A stretch of 64,000 nt of DNA, from assembly GCF_003946545.1 (NCBI RefSeq), contig NZ_RHOA01000010.1, forward strand, positions 1 to 64,000. The letters are read 5' to 3'. Source of the stretch: Levilactobacillus tangyuanensis (GTDB lineage: Bacteria; Bacillota; Bacilli; Lactobacillales; Lactobacillaceae). The notes under the pieces are model-generated. The model was not told the origin of the DNA. It saw nothing but the letters and a program-made list of their open reading frames with translations, and made no database searches. Positions 32,458 to 53,343 of this stretch are shown one piece after another; positions within the stretch are counted from its first letter, which is position 1; every line of letters begins with the position of its first letter. A program made the translations under genes and the position numbers.

Positions 32458-32525
32458 AATGTATTTCGCTCCTTTGCCCTGAACCATTGACTGGGTCAGA
32501 GATTGATTTAATCGTCAACCGTTGA

Positions 32526-42450: not shown

Positions 42451-43272
42451 ATGACAATCAAACTCATTGCCATTGACATCGATGGCACCTTATTGAATAA
42501 TGACCATCGCATCACCCCAGGAACTAAGGCCACCATCCAGGCTGCCTTAGCCGCCAACATCAAGGTGGTCCTGTGTTCCGGAAGACCATTGACTGGTGTG
42601 ACGCCATTTCTTCACGAATTAGGGATTAGCGGACCCGACCAATACGCGATAACCTTCAACGGTTCCATGGCCCAAACGGTTACCGGCAATGTCTTGGTTC
42701 AACACGCTCTGTCCTATACGGATTACATTGACCTCGAGGCCTGGGCCCGTAAACAAGCGGTCCATTTTCAGGTGGAAACCCCCGAACGGCTCTACACCGC
42801 CAACCCGGATATTAGCTGGGAAACGGTCGTTGAAAGTCATTTGGTGCACCTGCCCATTGCCATCCGAACGCTTGATGAAATGCCGACGGACCTCATCATG
42901 CCAACGGCCATGTTCATCGATGAAAAAGCCGTAATCGACCGTGTCATCACCGCGATCCCCCAAGACTTTCACGACCGTTTCTATGTGGTTCGAACGTCGC
43001 CGAAATTCATCGAAGTCATGAATAAAAACGCTAGCAAGGGTAAGACACTCCACGAGTTGGCAACCCGCCTACAAGTAAATGCCGATGAAATCATGGCGAT
43101 TGGCGACCAGGGCAACGACCTCCCGATGATCCAGTATGCGGGGGTCGGCATCGCCATGGGTAACGCCAGCGATCCCGTCAAGGAAATAGCCGACCACATT
43201 ACCCTGCCCAACACCGAAGATGGTGTTGCCGCAGCAATCAACCGATACGCACTTAACTACTCAGAAGAATAA
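42451..43272 (+). CDS. Cof-type HAD-IIB phosphatase (first of a tandem pair)
   Basis: 273 residues. HAD motif [11 protein letters not shown] (10-17 region), motif II LCSGR, motif III Lys in [10 protein letters not shown], motif [15 protein letters not shown] cap between. Members (YidA-type) are sugar-phosphate or flavin/phosphate hydrolases with broad range. It directly follows the HD gene (stop and start abut) and is about half identical by eye to the next gene, a tandem duplication. Confidence 0.93.
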
Positions 43273-43287
43273 AGGAGACTCCTCTAC

Positions 43288-44097
43288 ATGACGATTAAAG
43301 TAATCGCAATCGATATTGATGGCACCTTAGTTAACGATCAAAAGCAAGTCACGCAAACCACCATCGACACCATTCAGGCCGCCCGCGACCGTGGCATCAA
43401 AGTGGTTCTCTGCAGTGGCCGACCACTCTCTGGCGTCAAGCCCTACCTCGACAAATTGGGCATCGATGGGGATGACGAATACGCGATTACCTTTAACGGA
43501 TCCGTTGCCCAAACCATCAGTGGCAAGGTCATGACTAACCACTCCCTGTCATACGATGACTTCATTGACCTCGAAGCCCTATCCCGGAAGCTTCAAGTGC
43601 ATTTCCAAATTGAGACACCCGATCATATCTACACCCCCAATAAAAATATCAGTGCCTACACCATTGCCGAAAGCTACATGGTTCGCATGTTGATTCGTTA
43701 CCGGAACGCCGCCGAAACCAGCCGCGACCTGACCATCTCTAAGGCCATGTTTGTTGACGAGCCTAAGATTATCAGCCGGATCAAGCCGCTGATTCCAGCC
43801 GAATTCCATGACCGCTTCTACGTCATTCAGAGTGAACCCTTCTTCATCGAAATCATGAACAAGAATGCCAGCAAGGGCAATGCCCTCAGTGAACTGGTTG
43901 CCGATCTCGGTTTCAAGTCCGACGAAGTCATGACTCTTGGTGACCAAGGGAATGACCTGACCATGATCCAATACGCCGGCCTTGGCGTTGCCATGGGTAA
44001 TGCCATTCCTGAAGTCAAGGAAGCCGCAAGCGCCGTGACCTTGACGAACAACGAAGACGGTGTCGCCGCTGCGATCAAGAAATACGCACTGGCTTAA
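43288..44097 (+). CDS. Cof-type HAD-IIB phosphatase (second of a tandem pair)
   Basis: 269 residues, paralogue of the preceding gene. Motifs [29 protein letters not shown] and [10 protein letters not shown] are intact, so both copies should be active. The copies differ mainly in the cap domain (about 90-190), which sets substrate choice. AAAGGAG upstream. The stop is followed 24 bp later by repeat copy A. Confidence 0.93.
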
Positions 44098-44120: not shown

Positions 44121-44307
44121 GGCCGCTCGCCGGCGGCCGGGGATGGCAGTCCGCCGTGGGGTCGCTCCAGCCAAAGTGCGGGCTGCCACTCGACTTGAAG
44201 CCGCGAATAAACCTCGCGTCTCCAAGCTCGACCCATGCTGTAAACTGGTAAATCATCAGTTAACACCATCGTCACAGCTACCCGCCATCCCCAACCGCCT
44301 CCGGCTA
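44121..44307 (+). repeat. Conserved structured intergenic element, copy A
   Basis: About 187 bp after the second HAD gene, same strand. Elements: 5' hairpin GGCCGC/GCGGCC; closing stem GGGGATGGC (44139-44147) with GCCATCCCC (44284-44292); a hairpin with the CCAAAGTGCGGG loop (44161-44194); a hairpin CTTGAAGcCGCGA/CGCGtctcCAAG; a hairpin ATGCTGT-AACTG/CAGTT-ACACCAT (44235-44269); the tail ACCGCCTCCGGCTA. The same plan, with different paired bases, occurs in copies B and C. Confidence 0.6.
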
Positions 44308-44339
44308 CATGGAAGCATCAATTAAACTTAGGCCAAATT

Positions 44340-44371
44340 GGTCCACCGTTTTTTTATCGGTGGGCCTTTTT
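44340..44371 (+). terminator. Terminator after element copy A
   Basis: GGTCCACCG/CGGTGGGCC stem with a T-rich loop and a T5 tail; it would end the HAD transcript or any transcript of the element. The next 120 bp (to 44495) show nothing recognisable. Confidence 0.85.
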
Positions 44372-44495
44372 GTTGTTCTCGTGAACGAGATTCCCGACAA
44401 CCTCATTGATTTCTGACAGGTCATAGTTCAAATGGACTTGTCATCGCACGCCACATCACATGGTCAGTTCTCACCCATCACCGTGGCAACAGCAA

Positions 44496-44526
44496 CAAAA
44501 AACCGCCGATCAATCATGATCGACGG
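44496..44526 (-). terminator. Terminator of the DUF3899 gene
   Basis: Minus-strand CCGTCGATCA/TGATCGGCGG stem followed by a T run. Confidence 0.85.
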
Positions 44527-44548
44527 CCCTTTAACATTTAGTCTGTTT

Positions 44549-44905
44549 TTATAAGACGGTAAAGATGATTCCCAGGACCATGTAACAGGCACCGGAAACC
44601 AGGCCATAGCGGGCCGGAGCGTTAACCGTGATCGGGGCGTTCTTCACGCTTGCGACGTGACGGACCCCAACCTTTTCGCCTGGTAATGGCGCCGGGTCTT
44701 CACCTTTGCGTCGGCGATGCCGCCAGCCCGTAAAGAGATGCCCCTTCAATAAGACACAGATAGCCCCAAAGACTAACAATGCCAACCCGAACATAAACAG
44801 GAGATTGCCAATCACCATTAACGGCTGGTTCAGGATCTTCATGACCAATGCGACCAACAGGCCGCCCGCAACCGTTCCCGTTGCCCAACGTTGCCACTTA
44901 TTCAT
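44549..44905 (-). CDS. DUF3899 membrane protein
   Basis: 118 residues. Three hydrophobic segments: about 10-28, 31-53 (GNLLFMFGLALLVFGAICVLL) and 98-118 at the C-terminus, with a basic loop WRHRRRKGE between. This is the DUF3899 pattern. Function unknown. It has its own terminator and lies after prs. Confidence 0.8.
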   Translation of the reverse strand: MNKWQRWATGTVAGGLLVALVMKILNQPLMVIGNLLFMFGLALLVFGAICVLLKGHLFTGWRHRRRKGEDPAPLPGEKVGVRHVASVKNAPITVNAPARYGLVSGACYMVLGIIFTVL

Positions 44906-44925
44906 TCAACCGCTCCTCACTTTAA

Positions 44926-44967
44926 CAAAAAAGCCCAAGCCAACGCCCAGCGCCGCTCAAGCCTTTA
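44926..44967 (-). terminator. prs terminator
   Basis: Minus-strand GCTTGAGC/GCTTGGGC stem (imperfect, extended inner pairing) followed by TTTTTTG. Confidence 0.7.
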
Positions 44968-44972
44968 AGATC

Positions 44973-45953
44973 TTACTGTTCTTGACTCCGAAAACGATTC
45001 TTAAACAAAGGACTCACTGGACGGTTTTCGTTAATCCGCTTGATGGCTTGGCCAATCAGTGGACCGACAGAAATCTGTTCAATCTTATCGATTTGTTTTT
45101 CTGGCGTTAACTGAATAGAGTCGGTAATCACTAACTTTTTAATTGGTGAATCTTGAATCCGGTCGATAGCAGGACCAGACAGGACAGGGTGAGTACAACT
45201 GGCGTAAACCTCCGTTGCTCCCGCATCCATCAAAGCCTTCGATCCCAGGGTAATCGTTCCGGCCGTATCAATCATGTCATCAATCATGATACAACGCTTG
45301 CCCTTAACGTCACCGATGATGTTCATCACCTTGGCCACGTTAGCCTTGGGCCGCCGCTTGTCAATGATGGCAATTGGGGCCTTTAAGAATTCGGCTAATG
45401 CTCGTGCCCGCGTCACCCCACCATGGTCGGGTGAAACAACAACGGCATCCTTAGCCAAACCATTACGTAAGAAGTAGTCCGCCAACAATGGCGCACCCAT
45501 CAAATGGTCGACAGGAACATCGAAGAACCCTTGAATCTGGGCAGCATGGAGGTCCAGTGCCAAGACCCGAGTCACCCCGGCCGTCTGTAACATATTTGCT
45601 ACAAGCTTGGCCGTGATTGGTTCCCGAGAACGTGCCTTACGGTCTTGTCGAGCGTAGCCGTAGTAAGGAATGACCACGTTAATGGTCGCAGCACTTGCCC
45701 GCCGCAACGCATCGATCATGATTAACAATTCCATCAAGTTGTCGTTTACTGGCGCCGAGGTCGATTGAATCACGTAGACGTGACAACCCCGAATGCTTTG
45801 TTCAATGTTAATCCGAATTTCACCGTCACTAAAACGGTCCACCGAAGTTTTACCCAATTCAACCCCAACTTCGTCGGCAATCTTTTGAGCCAACGGTTTG
45901 TTAGAGTTCAACGCAAAGATCTTCAATTTAGGGTCAAAATATTGCGTAGCCAT
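44973..45953 (-). CDS. prs: Ribose-phosphate pyrophosphokinase
   Basis: Makes PRPP from ribose 5-phosphate and ATP for nucleotide, His and Trp synthesis (326 aa). Conserved [18 protein letters not shown] (in part), ATP flexible loop [14 protein letters not shown] and the PRPP-type loop [13 protein letters not shown]. The ATG at MATQYFDP has GGAGG 5 nt upstream; an upstream frame to 45971 is not used. purR-glmU-prs order, as in many Firmicutes. Confidence 0.96.
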
Positions 45954-45997
45954 AATTTCCTCCAATAGCAACTAAGCTGCCAGAATTTACTATAACA

Positions 45998-46026
45998 ATT
46001 TTATGCTATCGAGTCGTGAAACACAA
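45998..46026 (-). promoter_or_regulatory. prs promoter
   Basis: Minus-strand -35 TTGTGT (46021-46026), 17-bp spacer, -10 TAAAAT (45998-46003), in the 83-bp gap after glmU. Confidence 0.5.
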
Positions 46027-46036
46027 GACCTACAAC

Positions 46037-47416
46037 CTAGTCTTCGCCCCGATATGGTAGTTTTTGGTAATAATTAGGCTTATTCGTTTGCCGTTGACGG
46101 GCAATGGCCATGTCGTATTGGTTAACCTGATCCGTAATCGTTGAACCGGCAGCGATGAAGCTGTGGTCAGCAACGTCCAATGGTGCCACCAGATTTGAGT
46201 TAGATCCGATGAAGGCATCATCGCCAACCACCGTCTCATGCTTGTGTTTGCCGTCGTAATTAACGAAGACCACGCCACAACCAACGTTGATGTTCTTACC
46301 CAACGTGGCATTCCCAACGTAGGTCAAGTGACCGACCTTGGTGCCCTCGCCAATCGTGGCCTTCTTAACCTCCACAAAGTTCCCCAGGTGGACGCCGGCC
46401 CCAATGTGGGACTCTGGCCGTAAGTGACTGTCAGGACCAATGTTGCTCCCGCTAGCCATATCAGAATCTTCCAGCAACGAAGACGTTACCGTGACGTGGT
46501 CGGCCAACTGGGCATTCCGCAATTCAGAATGAGCACCAATGTAGCAATCCTCACCGATTACCGTGTCACCCTTCAGCAAGACGCCGGGTTCAATAATGGT
46601 GTCGGCACCAATCTTAACGCCGGCATCAATATAGGTCGTCGCGGGATCGATTAACGTCACCCCATCACGCATGTGAGCCTCGTTAATCCGCTTCCGCATA
46701 ATCTTCGTTGCTGCTGACAAGGCCACGCGATCATTAACCCCCATGGATTCATTGAAGTCATCCATTTGGTAGGCCGCCACGATGTCACCCTTGTGCTTCA
46801 AAATTTCAATGACATCGGTCAGGTAGTATTCCCCTTGAGCGTTATCGTTGGAGGTTTCGTGCAGGGCAGCAAACAACTTTTGATTATCGAAGACGTAGAC
46901 ACCCGTATTAATTTCGTGGAATTCCTGTTCTTCTGAACTGGCATCCTTTTGTTCCACAATCTTTTCGACGATGCCGATGTTATTGCGGACAATCCGGCCA
47001 TAGCCAGTTGGGTCTGGGGCAACGGAAGTCAAAATGGTTGCGGCCGCGTGCTTAGCTTCATGATAGGCAAACAGATCGTCGAAGGTTTCCGCCCGGAAGA
47101 GTGGCGTATCGCCACTAACGATTAAGGTCGTTCCTTCTTCATTCTTCAGCATCGGTTCCGTCTGAAGAACCGCATGGCCGGTCCCTAATTGCTTGGCCTG
47201 TAAGGCGTATTGTGTCCGGTCACCTAAGGTTGCCTTGACATCTTCAGCGCCATAACCGACAACCGTCACAATTTGGTCCATCTTGGTTTGTTCAACCTGG
47301 GTCAACACGTGGTCAACCATGGCCTTACCACACACTTGATGTAAGACCTTGTACAACTTCGACTTCATCCGGGTGCCCTTACCGGCAGCCAGGATAATGG
47401 TATTTCTCGTACTCAT
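46037..47416 (-). CDS. glmU: Bifunctional GlcN-1-P acetyltransferase / GlcNAc-1-P uridyltransferase
   Basis: Makes UDP-GlcNAc, the precursor of peptidoglycan and wall polymers (459 aa). N-terminal uridyltransferase with [12 protein letters not shown]-terminal left-handed beta helix of hexapeptide repeats (about 250-440) with the acetyltransferase region [20 protein letters not shown] (in part). GGAGA before the ATG; it is 19 bp after purR. Confidence 0.97.
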
Positions 47417-47435
47417 TCGAAAAATCTCCTAGTTT

Positions 47436-48269
47436 TTAATTATTGTCAGTATTAAAAATCTGCGTCAGGTAATTCCCTGGTGTCACACGAATCTTCTCGT
47501 CTTGGGTGTGAATCTGCAAGAGCGAGGTGTACTTGCTAACGGTCCGTTGGCCTTCGAAGTCGCCTTCGGCAAAGACCGCCACACCAGCTAATTGAGAATC
47601 GAATTCATCGACCAATGAACGAAGGCCCCCAACGGTGCCCCCGCCCTTCATGTAATCATCGACAATCAGGACTTTGGAACCCGGCTTAACGCTTCGCTTG
47701 GATAGGGCCATGCGTTCGATTCGTTTGCTGGAACCGGACACATAATTCACGCTGACCGTGGAGCCTTCCGTAATCTGTGAATCATGACGAACGATGACGA
47801 ACGGAACGTTGAGGTAGCTAGCCACACTCTGCGCCAAAGGAATGCCCTTGGTGGCCACCGTCACCACGACGTCAACCGACTGATTCAGATACTGAGTTGC
47901 CAGAATTCGACCAATTTGCCGTAATGCCGATGGCCGACCCAAGATATCCGACATGTAGACGTAGCCACCCGGCAGGTACCGGTCAGCATCGGATAACTCC
48001 GTAATCATCTCATCAACAAAGTGTTGAGCATCTTCCCGTAAGATATAAGGGATGAACCGGGCACCACCAGCGGCACCGGGAACGGTCTCTAACAATCCTG
48101 TTCCGCGGGCCTGGAAGGTTCGCTTCAGGATTGTTAAATCTTCACTGATTGAGGACTTGGCAGACTCATAACGAGTTGCAAAAAAGGTCAATGAAACTAA
48201 TTGGTGCGGTCTTTCCAATAAATAACGGGTCATGTCGACCAATCGGTCACTTCTTCTGACTTTCAACAT
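47436..48269 (-). CDS. purR: Pur operon repressor
   Basis: 277-residue PRPP-sensing regulator of purine synthesis. N-terminal winged helix (about 1-75, RRSDRLVDMTRYLLERPHQL in part) and a C-terminal phosphoribosyltransferase-like domain with the PRPP motif VLIVDDYMKGGGTVGG. The ATG of MLKVRRSD is preceded by GAGGTG; the longer frame to 48320 covers the promoter. A PurBox lies in its own promoter. Confidence 0.95.
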   Translation of the reverse strand: MLKVRRSDRLVDMTRYLLERPHQLVSLTFFATRYESAKSSISEDLTILKRTFQARGTGLLETVPGAAGGARFIPYILREDAQHFVDEMITELSDADRYLPGGYVYMSDILGRPSALRQIGRILATQYLNQSVDVVVTVATKGIPLAQSVASYLNVPFVIVRHDSQITEGSTVSVNYVSGSSKRIERMALSKRSVKPGSKVLIVDDYMKGGGTVGGLRSLVDEFDSQLAGVAVFAEGDFEGQRTVSKYTSLLQIHTQDEKIRVTPGNYLTQIFNTDNN

Positions 48270-48310
48270 CTTCACCTCAAACGTTTTCTTTAGAGTTAAT
48301 TGTAAGGTCA

Positions 48311-48334
48311 ATTTTAGCATAAATGTTCGGGTTT
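48311..48334 (-). promoter_or_regulatory. purR promoter with PurBox
   Basis: Extended -10 TGCTAAAAT (hexamer 48311-48316) on the minus strand, and just upstream AAACCCGAACATT (48322-48334), matching the PurBox consensus AWWWCCGAACWWT at all but one position. It suggests PurR controls its own operon. Confidence 0.6.
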
Positions 48335-48450
48335 ATCGTTATATTTTCGTGAGAAAAAGGAAAAATGGCGGAAATTTAAGAAATGAAAGCGAAAGAAAAA
48401 AAGTTGACCATCGCCAGCGCCTCGTAATTTCCAATTATTTTCAAATACGC

Positions 48451-49248
48451 CTATTCGGCCGTTTGTAATTTTTGCCAACCCAACGCCGCGAAGTAAAACA
48501 GCGCCTCGATGGCGGCAATAAAGAACGACACGGGATAGTTCGTGACATAGCTCAAAACCAGACCAAGCCAAACCCCAATCAAGGCCAAGCCAACCGCTAG
48601 GATCATCATGCCACCCACCGTATGGGCAAAGTACTTCGCCGTTGCCGCCGGCAGCGTCAGAAGAATAAAGATCAACAGTGACCCGACAATCTGGGCCGCC
48701 ACACTCACGCTCAATGCCAGCAGGACCAGGAAAATAATCGACAGGCTGTTGGTCCACAGCCCCTTGACCCGGGCCCCGGTGTGGTCAAACGAATCGAATT
48801 TCAAAAACCGATAAATCACAAAGATCACGATGAGCACCAGCAGGGACAACCACAGCATCTGTCGCACATCGGCCGCGCTAATCCCAATGACGCTCCCAAA
48901 CAAGATACTGGTGGCGTAACTGGCATTCTTATTGGCCAACGATAGGAATAAAATCCCTAGGCCAATGAAGAGCGCCGAGATAGCACTCGTAGCGGCCTCA
49001 CGTCGTTCACTACGGGCACTCAATTGGCCCACAATGACGGAACTCACAACCGTGAACAACAGCATCCCATTCAGGGGGGCCCAACCGGCAAAAATCCCGA
49101 AGGCCGCCCCCGAAAAGCCAATTTCGGAAAGGGTATGCGTTAGAAACGACATGTTACGAGCGATCACAAAGACCCCCATGATGCCACAAATAATGGCGAT
49201 GATGGTGCCGGCCGCGAAGGCGTTGCGCATAAATTCATAACTAAACAT
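48451..49248 (-). CDS. znuB: Zinc-type ABC transporter permease
   Basis: 265 residues with about 8 membrane segments, ABC-3 family (ZnuB/AdcB/MntC type). The C-terminal half carries the long hydrophobic blocks LSIIFLVLLALSVSVAAQIV (in part). It overlaps the ATPase gene by 8 bp and would form the membrane channel. Zinc rather than manganese is inferred from the Zur-like box upstream of the operon. Confidence 0.92.
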   Translation of the reverse strand: MFSYEFMRNAFAAGTIIAIICGIMGVFVIARNMSFLTHTLSEIGFSGAAFGIFAGWAPLNGMLLFTVVSSVIVGQLSARSERREAATSAISALFIGLGILFLSLANKNASYATSILFGSVIGISAADVRQMLWLSLLVLIVIFVIYRFLKFDSFDHTGARVKGLWTNSLSIIFLVLLALSVSVAAQIVGSLLIFILLTLPAATAKYFAHTVGGMMILAVGLALIGVWLGLVLSYVTNYPVSFFIAAIEALFYFAALGWQKLQTAE

Positions 49249-49939
49249 TTTCGCCCTCCCAAACCTTGTTCTGTGTCAGGCCAGCAATGGGACCCTGTTC
49301 AGCACCACGAGGCGTTAACATCAAGTATTCCGTACTGTACTTCCGTGCCATGGGAATATCATGCGTGACGAAGAGGACGGTCAGATCGAGTCGTTGATTC
49401 AACTCCTGGACCAGGTCGAGCAGGTCCGTCTTAGTCACCGGGTCCAGACTCGCCGTCGATTCATCCAGGATTAACAGATTCGGGGCCTCAACCAAGGCTT
49501 GCGCCAAGTAGGCCTTCTGCCGTTCCCCACCGGATGCCTGGCCAATCGGCCGTTTAGCAATGTCCGCCAAGCCGGTTTCCTTTAAGATCTCCCGGACCGC
49601 TTGATGCTCAGTCCGTGATAACCAGGGCCACTTCCAACCGGTCAGGTTTAACCCGACAAAATCCTCGATGGTCAAGGGATAGTCGGCATCGATGTTGCGA
49701 AACTGGGGAACATACCCTATCTTGACGTGATTGGCGTCCGGCAGATAGGTCACCCGTCCATGGGTGGGCCGCAACTGATGCAGGATCGTTCGCATCAGCG
49801 TCGTTTTCCCTACCCCATTTTTCCCGACGATACTGAGAAAGTCGCCATGATTAATGGTGAGATTAAGGTCCTTAAAGACCGGGTGGTTCGGAAAGGTCAC
49901 GCCGAGATTATCTAATTTTAAAATTGGTGCTGTCGTCAT
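49241..49939 (-). CDS. znuC: Zinc-type ABC transporter ATP-binding protein
   Basis: 232-residue ATPase. Walker A GKNGVGKTT, signature SGGERQKAY, Walker B LLILDESTAS, H-loop VTHDI. The start is the ATG of MTTAPILK with GGAGGG upstream; it overlaps the substrate-binding gene by 4 bp (ATGA), a coupled pair. Confidence 0.93.
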   Translation of the reverse strand: MTTAPILKLDNLGVTFPNHPVFKDLNLTINHGDFLSIVGKNGVGKTTLMRTILHQLRPTHGRVTYLPDANHVKIGYVPQFRNIDADYPLTIEDFVGLNLTGWKWPWLSRTEHQAVREILKETGLADIAKRPIGQASGGERQKAYLAQALVEAPNLLILDESTASLDPVTKTDLLDLVQELNQRLDLTVLFVTHDIPMARKYSTEYLMLTPRGAEQGPIAGLTQNKVWEGENV

Positions 49940-50856
49940 GATTGACTTCCCTCCTGAATCCGTTGAACCTGGCGATACTGCTTCAACATCCACGTCCGAT
50001 AGCTCTCCTTGGTCGGCATGGTCTCGGTGACCTTCACCACCGGAATGCCGGACTGCTTAGCTAACTTGACCATGGCTGTCACATTTTTACTAGAGTTTTG
50101 GGTGTTTTCCACAAAGAACGCAATCTGATGATGACGAATCTGGTGTTGTAACTGGGTAATGTCGGCGGGCGTCGGATCACTATCTTCTTCGATCGCCTGG
50201 GCAAAGTGGCCGTCACTGACGCGGTAGCCCATGGCCGTCAACGCCAGGTCAAAGACCGGCTCGCTCACGGCCACGCGTTGCCCATGAGACCCTTTAGCCA
50301 GTTGACGGGCTAGTTTAGGGAGGATGGCCAACTGCTGCTCATATGCCGCTCCACGCCGCTTATATTGGCTAGCATGGTCCGGATCAATCCGACTGAACTT
50401 CTTGACCAATTGCTGAGTGACCTTAGTCATCACCGCAGGGTCCGTCCAAAGATGGGGATTATCCCCCGTCGTCTTGCCCATTAGTTTCCCGATAGAAACC
50501 GTCTTCGTCCCGGAATCGGTGTTGGCCGCCACTAATTTATCCATCCAACTATCGTAACCCAAGCCATTCTCGATCACGACGTTGGCCTTGGCCACCTGCT
50601 TCGCCGTCCGAATATCCGGCTCGTAGCTTTCGGCATCGATGCTCGGACTATTAATCACCGTTGTGACCTGGCCCCGATCGCCCAAAATAGCTTTCGCTGC
50701 CTCACCATAAAAACCCAGCGTCGCGACCACCTGGAGTTTACCAGATTGGCGTGGCTGGGTTTGCTGCTGACAACCGGTCAAAATCAAGACGACGGCGAGC
50801 AAGGACATGATTAAGGTCAGGGTGCGCCATTGAATTCGCTTGCCCACTTTGTTCAT
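49936..50856 (-). CDS. znuA: Zinc-type ABC transporter substrate-binding lipoprotein
   Basis: 306-residue lipoprotein of the ZnuA/TroA cluster A-I. Lipobox LILTGC with lipidated Cys about 28. Metal-ligand histidines are expected in GDNPHLWTDPAVM and in the C-terminal third; the His-rich loop of some ZnuA is absent. First gene of znuA-znuC-znuB, under the Zur-like box. Confidence 0.93.
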   Translation of the reverse strand: MNKVGKRIQWRTLTLIMSLLAVVLILTGCQQQTQPRQSGKLQVVATLGFYGEAAKAILGDRGQVTTVINSPSIDAESYEPDIRTAKQVAKANVVIENGLGYDSWMDKLVAANTDSGTKTVSIGKLMGKTTGDNPHLWTDPAVMTKVTQQLVKKFSRIDPDHASQYKRRGAAYEQQLAILPKLARQLAKGSHGQRVAVSEPVFDLALTAMGYRVSDGHFAQAIEEDSDPTPADITQLQHQIRHHQIAFFVENTQNSSKNVTAMVKLAKQSGIPVVKVTETMPTKESYRTWMLKQYRQVQRIQEGSQS

Positions 50857-50879
50857 CCCATTCTTTACCCAAATTTATG

Positions 50880-50902
50880 TAAACAGTAATAATTACCGTT
50901 TA
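50880..50902. promoter_or_regulatory. Zur-box-like palindrome
   Basis: 23-bp near-perfect palindrome TAAACAGTAAT-A-ATTACCGTTTA, one mismatched pair. The core GTAAT-N-ATTAC matches the Firmicute Zur box. It overlaps the start site of the znu operon, so Zur plus zinc should repress it. Confidence 0.75.
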
Positions 50903-50905
50903 GTA

Positions 50906-50933
50906 ATTCTACCAGAGATTGAAAACTTGTCAA
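50906..50933 (-). promoter_or_regulatory. znu operon promoter
   Basis: Minus-strand consensus -35 TTGACA (50928-50933), 16-bp spacer, -10 TAGAAT (50906-50911), directly next to the Zur-like palindrome. Confidence 0.75.
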
Positions 50934-50947
50934 CAGGGTGTCGTTAA

Positions 50948-51880
50948 CTATTTGACGTAGGCCGTCAGGAAGTCGGCAACCATCTGGTCATAGCGTTCGG
51001 GGTCTTGGGCCCGGGTCTCGATATGGGCGGCAACCGGGTCCCGGTACTTAAACTTTGGACCCGCGGCGGCGCGATACAGTTTATCTAAATTATCAATGGG
51101 AACCGTTTGGTCGTTGACGCCTTGAATCAGGAAGATTGGCAAATGCGACTTACGCAATTGGCCAGCAATGTCGCCATCCGCCAATCGATAGTCGCTTAAC
51201 CGTGAGTATTGGTCGGCAATCGACAGGGCCGGTTGAGCGGGCACGTGAAAATCATGGTGGAGCCGGTACCGCGCTTCGCCTAAGACGGAAGCATAGCCAG
51301 AGTCCGCAATCACGGCCTTCACATTTTCAGGGAGGTCTTCACCCATGGTAGCCATCACGGTTGCCGCCCCCATGGAGATCCCCAACATGACAATCTGACA
51401 ATCATCGCCCTTGGCCGCAACGACCTGGTCAATCCAGCCTAAATAATCCAGCCGGTCCGTCCAGCCATAGCCAATCGTACTCCCGGCACTGTCGCCATGA
51501 GCCCGAGCGTCCGGCATCAGCACGTCATAGCCCCAACTGTGGAAGACCCGGGCCCAGGGAATCATTTGTTCCCGCGCGTGACCAAGGCCATGGGCCAAAA
51601 TAACCACTTTCGTTGTTTCTTCTTCGGCAGCAAGCCAACTTGCCCTGAGCAGTAACCCATCGCGACTGGTTTGGGTCCATTCCACCGGCTGATGGCGCAG
51701 ATACCAGGCATTATCAGAAGCTGAATTTTCCCCAATTGCCCGTTGTTTGGACTGTTCCCGACTCCGTGCATACGACTTCGTAGCGGCCACGTATAGCCCT
51801 GCCGCCGCTCCTAGGACACTGACAACGCCGACAGCGGAGAGCGCTGCAACGCCACCAACGACCTTTTGCCAAGTTTTCAT
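50948..51880 (-). CDS. Alpha/beta hydrolase, membrane-anchored
   Basis: 310 residues. N-terminal membrane segment (about 6-30), then an alpha/beta hydrolase fold: oxyanion region HGLGHAREQ, nucleophile elbow GISMGAA (Ser), Asp in LIQGVNDQTVP and the catalytic His near the C-terminus (AHIET). This is the S9-like family with YqhD/FrsA-type members annotated as esterases or peptidases; the substrate is unknown. No terminator is seen after it. Confidence 0.88.
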   Translation of the reverse strand: MKTWQKVVGGVAALSAVGVVSVLGAAAGLYVAATKSYARSREQSKQRAIGENSASDNAWYLRHQPVEWTQTSRDGLLLRASWLAAEEETTKVVILAHGLGHAREQMIPWARVFHSWGYDVLMPDARAHGDSAGSTIGYGWTDRLDYLGWIDQVVAAKGDDCQIVMLGISMGAATVMATMGEDLPENVKAVIADSGYASVLGEARYRLHHDFHVPAQPALSIADQYSRLSDYRLADGDIAGQLRKSHLPIFLIQGVNDQTVPIDNLDKLYRAAAGPKFKYRDPVAAHIETRAQDPERYDQMVADFLTAYVK

Positions 51881-51982
51881 CTTTACGACCCCTTTCGTTT
51901 TTTCCTACACCCCCACTGTACCCAAAAAAGGTAAGCGTTGCCACCATTTCCATTTAAATTATCTCGGGTTCCTCATATTGGA

Positions 51983-52155
51983 CCGCCGTCGGCGGTTAGG
52001 GGCTCCGTCCTATGGGGAACGGTCAAAGCCAAAGGGCGGTCTTTGACCTCGCCTGAAAGCCTACCGGCTTCCAGGTCGTCCCGTGCTGTAAAGCCAGCAA
52101 GCCACCTGGCTTAACACCACTTTCACAGGACTCCGCCCCTAACCACCTCTGGCTA
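51983..52155 (+). repeat. Conserved structured intergenic element, copy B
   Basis: 173 bp. 5' hairpin CCGCC-GTC-GGCGG; closing stem AGGGGC/GCCCCT, TCC/TCC internal loop, GTCCT/AGGAC (51998-52011 with 52127-52140); hairpin GGTCAAAG/CTTTGACC with loop CCAAAGGGCGGT (52021-52048); hairpin CCTGAAAGCC/GGCTTCCAGG; hairpin GTGCTGT-AAGCCAG/CTGGCTT-ACACCAC (52083-52120); tail ACCACCTCTGGCTA. Same architecture as copies A and C. Confidence 0.6.
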
Positions 52156-52507
52156 AGATCTGCGTAGACCAAAGATAAACAAATGAGATCCTACTAGCTC
52201 ATCATCTTTCACAAACGATTAGAGCACGACAACTTAATATGCCGGTCAAGCACCAGTAAGATGGGTCAAAAATTAGGCGATGCTCACTTGCATCACCATT
52301 AGCTTTTCAGGGTAAGCGTCATTCATAAATCGTTTTGCGCAGACAACATGATATCGAGGCAGCTTACATCCAGACAGTCGCTAGACGCAAAAAATTCGGT
52401 CGATCCAACAATCCTGCCCGATTGGTGACAGGCTTGCCTGTGTCGATTGTCAGTTCAACAATGACCACCGTTTCAATCAGGCCTTGGTTGCATTTGATCA
52501 TCCGTCT
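52156..52507. other. Intergenic DNA between element copies B and C
   Basis: About 350 bp without a gene I can support. Short open frames exist on both strands but have no ribosome binding site or family signature. The stretch is flanked by copies B and C in opposite orientation. Confidence 0.5.
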
Positions 52508-52695
52508 CGAGCCAGAGGTGGGGGGCAATGGAATCCTGTGACGGTGGTGTTGCTCCGACTGCAGTTTGTCGGACTTACACCACGGGCCGTCTTCGAGACC
52601 CACATTTTTTGTGGGACTTGAAGGCGAGTTCCGAGACCGCCCTTTGGCTCGGAACGGGCCCCACAGGATGGAATTGCCCCCCGCCGTCGGCGGGC
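52508..52695 (-). repeat. Conserved structured intergenic element, copy C
   Basis: 188 bp, inverted relative to copy B. On the minus strand: CCGCC-GAC-GGCGG hairpin; closing stem GGGGGGCAAT (plus 52520-52529 pairs with 52673-52682), symmetrical TCC/TCC internal loop, ATCCTGTG/CACAGGAT; hairpin GTTCCGAG/CTCGGAAC with loop CCAAAGGGCGGT (52628-52655); hairpin CTTCaAGTCCCACA/TGTGGGtctcGAAG; hairpin GTGGTGT-TCCGAC/GTCGGA-ACACCAC (52544-52583); tail CCACCTCTGGCT. Confidence 0.6.
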
Positions 52696-52720
52696 CAGTA
52701 TCGAAAAGAAACTCAGAAAA

Positions 52721-52758: not shown

Positions 52759-53343
52759 TTAATCAGTCATAATTTGACGAACATGGTCTTGCAAAACAGG
52801 GACGACATCCTCGATAAACCAGGGATGTTGATGCTGCCAACCATAGTTCAATGGCGATGGATGGACTAACGGAAAGTATTCCGGAAGATAGTCCTGATAG
52901 TGTTCAACCGTAGCCGTTAAGGTTGGTTCATGCTTATCCAGGTACGCCTTTTGCGCATACTGGCCAATTAACAGCGTCAATTTAATCTTCGGCATCAACG
53001 CTAATAAGGGGGCATGCCACTTCTCGGCGAAGCCCTTTCGTGGCGGCAAATCGCCACCATGTAGATGTTTGCCAGGATAATAGAAGTCCAACGGCAGAAC
53101 GGCAATCTTACCAGAATGATAAAACTCATCCTTGGTAACGCCCATCCACTCGCGGAGTCGGTTGCCACTGGCATCGTCCCAGAAGGTCATCGCGGCCTGT
53201 GCTTGACGACTAGGCGCCTGACTCACCAAAAGGATTTCTGCCTGGGGATCAATGTGATACAAAGGCTGAAGCCCCTGAGCAGTCAATGCCGCGTTCTGCG
53301 GATCAGCCTGGATCGCCTCAAAAATCTCAGCCGTTGTCTGCAC
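52759..53343 (-). CDS. Uracil-DNA glycosylase family protein
   Basis: 194 residues. Uracil-DNA glycosylase superfamily fold with motif LLVSQAPSRQAQ (N-terminal motif) and VHPSPLNYGW (the HPSP motif of motif 3). It is one of the small UDG-like enzymes, not classic Ung. It should remove uracil or related damage, but specificity is unknown. GTG start with GGGGAGG 5 nt upstream. Confidence 0.88.
   Translation of the reverse strand: MQTTAEIFEAIQADPQNAALTAQGLQPLYHIDPQAEILLVSQAPSRQAQAAMTFWDDASGNRLREWMGVTKDEFYHSGKIAVLPLDFYYPGKHLHGGDLPPRKGFAEKWHAPLLALMPKIKLTLLIGQYAQKAYLDKHEPTLTATVEHYQDYLPEYFPLVHPSPLNYGWQHQHPWFIEDVVPVLQDHVRQIMTD

Follow-up and report, generated by a model that had tools for sequence, protein, structure and literature searches.

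We analysed a 64,000-nucleotide stretch of Levilactobacillus tangyuanensis DNA (contig NZ_RHOA01000010.1, positions 1 to 64,000; hereafter the window), which carries three copies, A, B and C, of a structured interspersed repeat. The repeat family is real, abundant and without a name; in behaviour it resembles BOX/RUP or miniature inverted-repeat transposable elements (MITEs), membership in either group not being established. We put at roughly two in three (0.68) the chance that the copies are interspersed non-coding repeats of this MITE/BOX-like kind, foldable into a long outer stem with a branched core, and spreading as DNA. The copies behave more as spreading DNA than as one particular regulatory RNA; of the two guesses offered in an earlier note on this DNA, an RNA-structured mobile repeat and a regulatory RNA, it is the former that we favour. 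The repeat fills many intergenic regions in some Lactobacillaceae genomes, without a family in Rfam 15, and if our reading is true, the annotation and engineering of gene boundaries and untranslated regions in these food bacteria would change.

Abundance and distribution of the repeat

Two search models were used: R1, built from 16 copies including A, B and C, and R2, built from 114 rows of two other genomes (G021 and G012). Both recover A, B and C where the earlier note had placed them (Table 1), the R1 scores of these three not being independent because they are among its training copies. The fourth R1 row in the window is the reverse strand of copy B (27.6 bits). Using copy B as a blastn query, 15 places were found in its own genome, B and C included and A not, and its own contig C1 (355 kb) holds 15 R1 rows above 70 bits.

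The further copies, a search for which the note had proposed, number tens to hundreds in the genomes of many lactic acid bacteria and are almost always intergenic. Within the genus, 33 of 35 genomes were matched by R1 (E <= 1e-3), many of them with at least 73 scored candidates, some reverse-strand echoes being counted; the E-values are rough, following a short calibration. No copy was found by R1 in G031 and G022, nor by R2 in G031. Across the order, R1 matched 10/295 genomes in 5/74 genera at E <= 1e-5, all within the same family, and at this threshold R2 matched 80/301 genomes of the family in 11/40 genera. Copies from other genera, inspected by eye, keep the loops and junctions while the stem letters are altered. 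Among 13 loci of named genomes taken from a pattern scan, two hold copies by R1, from Levilactobacillus paucivorans (146.6 bits) and L. senmaizukei (50 bits, internally shortened). Copy density is very uneven among relatives. In G021, 90 rows occur in 270 kb (R1, E <= 0.01), or 97 with R2, a few of them weak, and about 1000 copies per G021 genome would follow by extrapolation if the density were even. From one set of 25 rows, 10 were left out of the counts: five were reverse-strand echoes, four were weak rows in L106 and one lay in L112 (maybe other subtypes). In another R1 set 15 of 63 rows were left out as reverse-strand echoes or overlaps, and from a further set 24 of 29 rows were not carried forward.

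The family is unnamed as far as Rfam 15 is concerned; the note knew of no named family of this form. At gathering scores the sole match in the window was an L31 leader outside the copies, 140 kb of sequence rich in copies gave none, and in 20 loci mostly from other genera the matches were one T-box and one tRNA, neither of them within a copy. A lax scan around copy A gave nothing near the gathering score. A known Rfam RNA was rejected for lack of any match to the copies at gathering score in these scans. A limited search among open-licence PMC papers found no report of such a repeat in lactobacilli, the Lacto-int motif, for which PMC2864571 gives no Rfam number, not having been compared. Carriage by phages or plasmids was also rejected: blastn with one copy found no match in phage and plasmid collections and one pattern had none in viral contigs, this being for that subtype only.

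Table 1. Copies of the repeat in the window, the spacer between B and C, and the parts of the fold in copy B.
Feature	Position	Strand	Details
Copy A	44122-44312	reading +, probable folding strand -	R1 126.6 bits, R2 123.2 bits, fold z -3.24
Copy B	51978-52160	reading +, probable folding strand -	R1 188.4 bits, R2 155.3 bits, fold z -4.82
Copy C	52504-52698	reading -, probable folding strand +	R1 182.6 bits, R2 153.9 bits, fold z -6.27
B-C spacer	52161-52503	none	343 bp, on the reading 3' side of both copies
Copy B, P1 outer stem, 5' arm	51985-52003	+	A3 columns 8-26, positions converted by hand
Copy B, P1 outer stem, 3' arm	52135-52153	+	A3 columns 172-193, positions converted by hand
Copy B, P1b inner stem, 5' arm	52007-52014 (partner 52124-52131)	+	A3 columns 30-37 with 161-168
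Copy B, hairpin H2	52021-52048	+	Conserved GCC-AAAGNNC-GGT loop; A3 columns 44-72
Copy B, hairpin H3	52052-52075	+	Shortened in copy B; A3 columns 76-110
Copy B, hairpin H4	52083-52120	+	Conserved TAA/TAA mismatch; A3 columns 118-157

Shared fold and folding strand

The folds of the three window copies were compared with dinucleotide shuffles (200 per copy), and for A, B and C each none of the 200 was as good. An alignment of 16 copies set in one orientation (A3) reveals a common plan, with stems that change yet still pair as the note had described: outer and inner stems separated by an internal loop, a junction where hairpin H4 sits, and another stem, which bears hairpins H2 and H3. Visible in A3 are a GC-rich 5' end, an AGCC-AAAGNNC-GGTCT hairpin, a third hairpin with an A mismatch, a closing stem with internal loop, an xTGnTGT/ACACCAx hairpin and the tail CCnCCTCYGGCT. 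The '5' hairpin' and 'tail' that had been listed as separate parts mostly form the opposite arms of a single outer stem. The A3 structure has 92.1% of 982 alignment cells paired, with two-sided changes at 35 of 64 pairs (102 cells), and none of 500 shuffles reached the observed covariation by any of five measures. Since the structure came from these very copies, and since relatedness can let sequences outdo shuffles, the copies found later and a control with slid structures (31.0-46.5% of cells paired) count for more. A pseudoknot between the tail and the H2 loop was rejected, since by eye on A3 the loops do not track the tail.

The strand on which the note had read the element, here called the reading strand, is probably not the one that folds in the window's subtype. 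On A3, RNAalifold yields -60.6 for the reading strand and -84.8 for the reverse strand, with G-U/A.C cells of 26/23 and 74/15, respectively. Among the 52 copies above 80 bits, the reading strand was lower in 5, with a mean difference of 12.97 kcal of which composition makes up 8.05, and the reverse strand was more significant in 40. On the basis of these energies, cells and per-copy folds, the reverse strand is probably the folding strand for the window's subtype. It may also be so, less surely, for the other subtypes: in G021/G012 the G-U/A.C cells are 87/41 (reverse) versus 42/51 (reading) for the best 60 rows and 128/69 versus 104/88 for all 114, a weaker preference than in A3, and between orthologues they are 63/52 on one strand and 58/74 on the other. 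Control RNAs were treated likewise. RNase P (30 genomes) yields 473/1 for the true strand and 32/22 for the wrong one, with a strand difference of -36 kcal in 30/30, and 30 poorly aligned T-boxes yield 97/18 for the true strand. Neither the window's subtype nor the others resemble the RNase P pattern.

Meaning of the covariation

Covariation alongside constant loops led the earlier note to conclude that RNA structure is under selection. In that form the conclusion lacks support, as two-sided changes far exceed G-U cells and a stem can be seen to have been rewritten as a block. For the 60 best G021/G012 copies, taken on their folding strand, 713 two-sided Watson-Crick cells stand against 74 one-sided G-U cells; the same count in controls from the genus gives 158 versus 170 for RNase P and 163 versus 74 for T-boxes. 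In 16 orthologous pairs, compared in both directions on single-sequence folds, 63 changes led to G-U, 52 to A.C, 47 to another mismatch and 31 were two-sided. RNase P pairs gave 306 G-U, 4 A.C, 28 other and 409 two-sided changes; here a two-row RNAalifold consensus was used, which favours G-U, and the two counts are therefore not directly comparable. Reading the orthologous elements L138:10241 and L132:10770 by eye, the inner stem has been rewritten as a block, with 5 + 2 arm changes and 12/12 positions complementary. Template switching in DNA can rewrite a stem in one step, according to PMC8794818, and such one-step copying of an arm would fit this stem. Because the changes are mostly two-sided with few G-U intermediates, template switching probably explains part of the covariation. 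The conservation of the loops across genera nonetheless argues that the fold is needed for something. With copies of differing age, orthologous copies and exchanged cores all present together, the repeat would, if this is true, offer a natural test of compensatory hairpin change by RNA selection versus DNA arm copying.

Placement, pairs and spacers

The copies nearly all sit between genes, with 2 of 88 in G021 lying inside a called open reading frame (ORF); ORFs for the placement and polarity counts were called by length only. Of these 88 copies, 62 have a gene boundary no more than 120 bp from their reading 5' end and three have one that close to the 3' end; in 79 the 5' side is the one closer to a boundary. 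The 5'-side gene is on the same strand in 53 and on the opposite strand in 35 (41 and 21 within 120 bp), and so the reading 5' end points at either the end or the start of a gene. No fixed place was found for -10-like boxes upstream of 56 copies. A placement of all copies behind terminators was not supported; by eye it was seen for some of them. At one locus (L321-L322 compared with L319-L320), two genes are 16 bp apart in G002 and G019, and in G021 and G027 some 600 bp separate them; in the wide form the first gene is followed by a terminator-like hairpin with a T-run and the second is preceded by a repeat, an operon having been either split or joined.

Neighbouring copies less than 700 bp apart (n = 64) are arranged as (+,-) in 46 cases, (-,-) in 14, (+,+) in 4 and (-,+) in none. 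The reading 3' end faces a fast-changing spacer. Spacers between paired copies (for example L122:4858-4964 and L122:11531-11706) share an identity of 0.58-0.62 with their counterparts in L126, where the flanking sequence is at least 0.94 identical. An invertible spacer was considered and rejected, since eight orthologous spacer pairs, when reversed, score at background.

Age, probable movement and core exchange

Copies occupy matching sites in sister species, and some of these copies are partly deleted or decayed; one G000 copy, for example, is internally deleted in G034. At seven loci with both genomes, sister-species identity is 2093/2385 for the elements, 1569/2014 for the spacers and 3' sides and 4664/5033 for the flanking sequence, with single elements ranging from 0.62 to 0.97. 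Signs of younger copies are also found. In a young G021 subfamily, 20 aligned copies stop sharply at unrelated flanks, with ends GGGYTAAAC/GTTTAGCCC. A 15-kb G021 query contains units of 219 bp and 261 bp that match dozens of G012 and G027 loci, mostly at 82-96% and with similar borders, among the matches listed. Where G021 has 664 and 422 bp, G002 and G019 have 16 and 71-72 bp. Elements from different loci reach an identity of 0.91-0.95, and most of their spacers do not match. Arm-pattern matches in G021 fall in pairs about 143 or 217-240 bp apart among the matches listed.

The core of the element can differ between orthologous copies. At two loci G021 carries the 219-bp subtype and G012 and G027 the 261-bp subtype, within the same outer arms. 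Thirteen orthologue comparisons were usable, several with unequal lengths or poor flanks, which leaves some of them unclear. Four of the 13 had a poor core (71/138, 76/138, 83/139 and 92/137), with arms of at least 16/20 each and flanks of at least 31/40; other comparisons keep the core (144/151, 134/151 and 126/144). At G012 c80 99338, the element and its upstream region are replaced between near-identical flanks. We infer from such loci that resident copies may undergo gene conversion.

The sequence beyond the conserved ends was compared for inverted complementarity between the two flanks in G021/G012, for which 44 of 114 R1 rows were usable. At five offsets, the means for a copy's own flanks were 12.36-14.73 versus 9.69-10.55 for permuted flanks, and 8, 10, 12, 8 and 5 of the 44 copies reached or exceeded the permuted 99th percentile, where about 0.4 were expected (offset 0 retains the conserved ends). 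By eye, an ORF end with its stop codon makes up the left flank of several copies. Near 202616, 57685 and 81020 of G021:C2, the last bases of an ORF and its stop codon recur inverted beyond the repeat.

Weighing of the explanations

We favour a reading in which the copies would spread singly, as BOX/RUP or other MITE-like repeats, with younger copies overwriting resident ones by recombination in the arms, that is by gene conversion. Template switching in DNA would partly keep the arms complementary, and the conserved loops and mismatches would mark recognition by a protein or machinery. Where co-transcribed, copies would place strong structures in untranslated regions, effects on neighbouring genes being maybe a side effect. 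Several observations weigh against it. No transposase or other mobiliser was identified, and PF01797 does not track the repeat. A target duplication was not seen, as direct flank similarity in the 44 copies (8.89-11.18) is level with that of permuted inverted flanks (9.69-10.55); a cruder test of 167 copies, with cut borders lying inside G021 elements, gave 13.26 for own and 12.43 for permuted direct flanks. In G000 flank complementarity was found in 1 of 30 copies by the cruder test, and a longer, gene-bearing version was not found among the matches listed in the G021 arm-pattern scan. Sequence is better kept in the elements than in the spacers, and a dead insertion would have no need of this. 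The short G002 and G019 sites may be losses instead of empty sites, the change having run in either direction. Three spacers among the top 16 pairs score 54-95, where the background has a mean of 23.8 and a maximum of 87, so a spacer may sometimes move together with its element. A more particular form of mobility, in which the branched core homes by overwriting resident cores via arm recombination while the outermost arms are copied from host DNA beside a gene, is a tentative possibility that we would sooner doubt than adopt. If it were true, each genome would hold hundreds of locus-specific hairpins with a shared, repeatedly replaced core.

It is rather unlikely that the repeat is a host-useful RNA element, encoded on the strand opposite to the reading strand, that would influence decay, termination or translation from the untranslated regions (5' or 3') of many genes and owe its multiplication to its usefulness. 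The loops conserved across genera while stems change, the better conservation of elements than of spacers and the G-U/A.C cells of A3 (74/15 on the folding strand versus 26/23) all fit such a role, as do the 21 of 62 close cases in which the 5'-side gene starts there and the folding strand would run into it. However, the same orientation is commoner at gene ends than at starts (41 versus 21 of the 62), no promoter box lies at a fixed distance, stems in sister species break about as often as they wobble, and G031 does without a copy by either model. That the (+,-) pair and its spacer form one mobile unit, with B and C as its unlike ends and single copies as remnants, seems to us very improbable: the absence of (-,+) among the 64 neighbouring pairs and the frequent combination of two unlike subtypes in G000 pairs would suit it, yet of 90 copies two have their own partner as nearest relative, many copies are single, and elements of 0.91-0.95 identity at different loci lack matching spacers in most of the top pairs. 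We give similarly little credence to an architectural element at the level of DNA, in which boundary hairpins or cruciforms would influence supercoiling, replication or recombination and the RNA would play no part. The nearly strand-symmetric folding in G021/G012 (128/69 versus 104/88 over the 114 rows) and the dense, boundary-bound G021 copies point that way, while the uneven density among relatives and the lack of copies in G031 speak against it.

Relation to known repeat families

REP and REPIN sequences, associated with RAYT, are extragenic palindromes that often form inverted pairs, REPs being far shorter than the repeat described here. The latter differs from them in its branched core, and the presence of PF01797 (IS200-type TnpA) does not track it: this domain occurs in 23 of 35 genomes, with none in G000 and five matches in G031. 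An IS200-type TnpA or RAYT-like partner was rejected on these grounds, as PF01797 is absent from copy-bearing G000 and present in copy-less G031. On G029:C1 there are eight PF01797 matches, four of equal score, which resembles a recently active insertion sequence.

The BOX, RUP and SPRITE repeats of Streptococcus pneumoniae are, in PMC3049150, short structured interspersed repeats spread in a few related species, judged parasitic and likely to affect co-transcribed genes. Compared by description, our repeat is also short, interspersed and structured; unlike these, its branched core is kept across 11 genera, it is far denser in some genomes, and its core is exchanged within resident arms. Prokaryotic MITEs, as presented in PMC10969869, are likewise small, non-coding elements with long terminal inverted repeats at many loci. 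The repeat measures 160-260 bp, has no coding capacity and occurs in many copies, and terminal inverted repeats with shared ends are found in the young G021 subfamily. In contrast to MITEs as described there, no target duplication was found, nor a related autonomous element among the arm-pattern matches listed, the branched internal fold is conserved and the copies are oriented to gene boundaries. The word Lactobacillus is absent from that review. Stem-loop sequence families such as Bcr1, Efa-1 and Lac-1 are genome-wide in bacteria and able to fold (passages of PMC2267715), which applies to our repeat too. In those passages L. johnsonii is the only Lactobacillus, with the one family Lac-1 (231, in coding regions), unlike which the present repeat is intergenic.

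Surroundings of the window copies

Copy A is single and starts 25 bp past the stop of a HAD-family ORF (43288-44097 +), with a DUF3899 ORF (44549-44905 -) as the next ORF, converging on it (family assignments by Pfam here and below). The adjacent ORFs 42451-43272 and 43288-44097 (+) are both HAD-family (PF08282) and resemble a tandem duplication, with copy A behind the second. Orthologues of copy A are present in G007 and G032, and G009 retains the tail only. Copies B and C together form a (+,-) pair, B lying upstream of an alpha/beta-hydrolase ORF (50948-51880 -), 98 bp from its start, and C 61 bp past the stop of a uracil-DNA-glycosylase-superfamily ORF (52759-53343 -). The gap between these two genes is 1068 bp in the window versus about 330 bp in G007, G032 and G009, where R1 found no copy in it. 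In the nearest relative, G034, contigs C30 and C34 (L095, L089) both stop where B and C sit in the window, and its state at this site is thus unreadable. Two uncharacterised ORFs across copy C (125 and 113 aa) had no Pfam match. The L31 leader in the window, an L31-Firmicutes ribosomal protein leader (RF03156), lies at 32469-32501 on the minus strand and scores 34.5 bits, barely above its gathering score.

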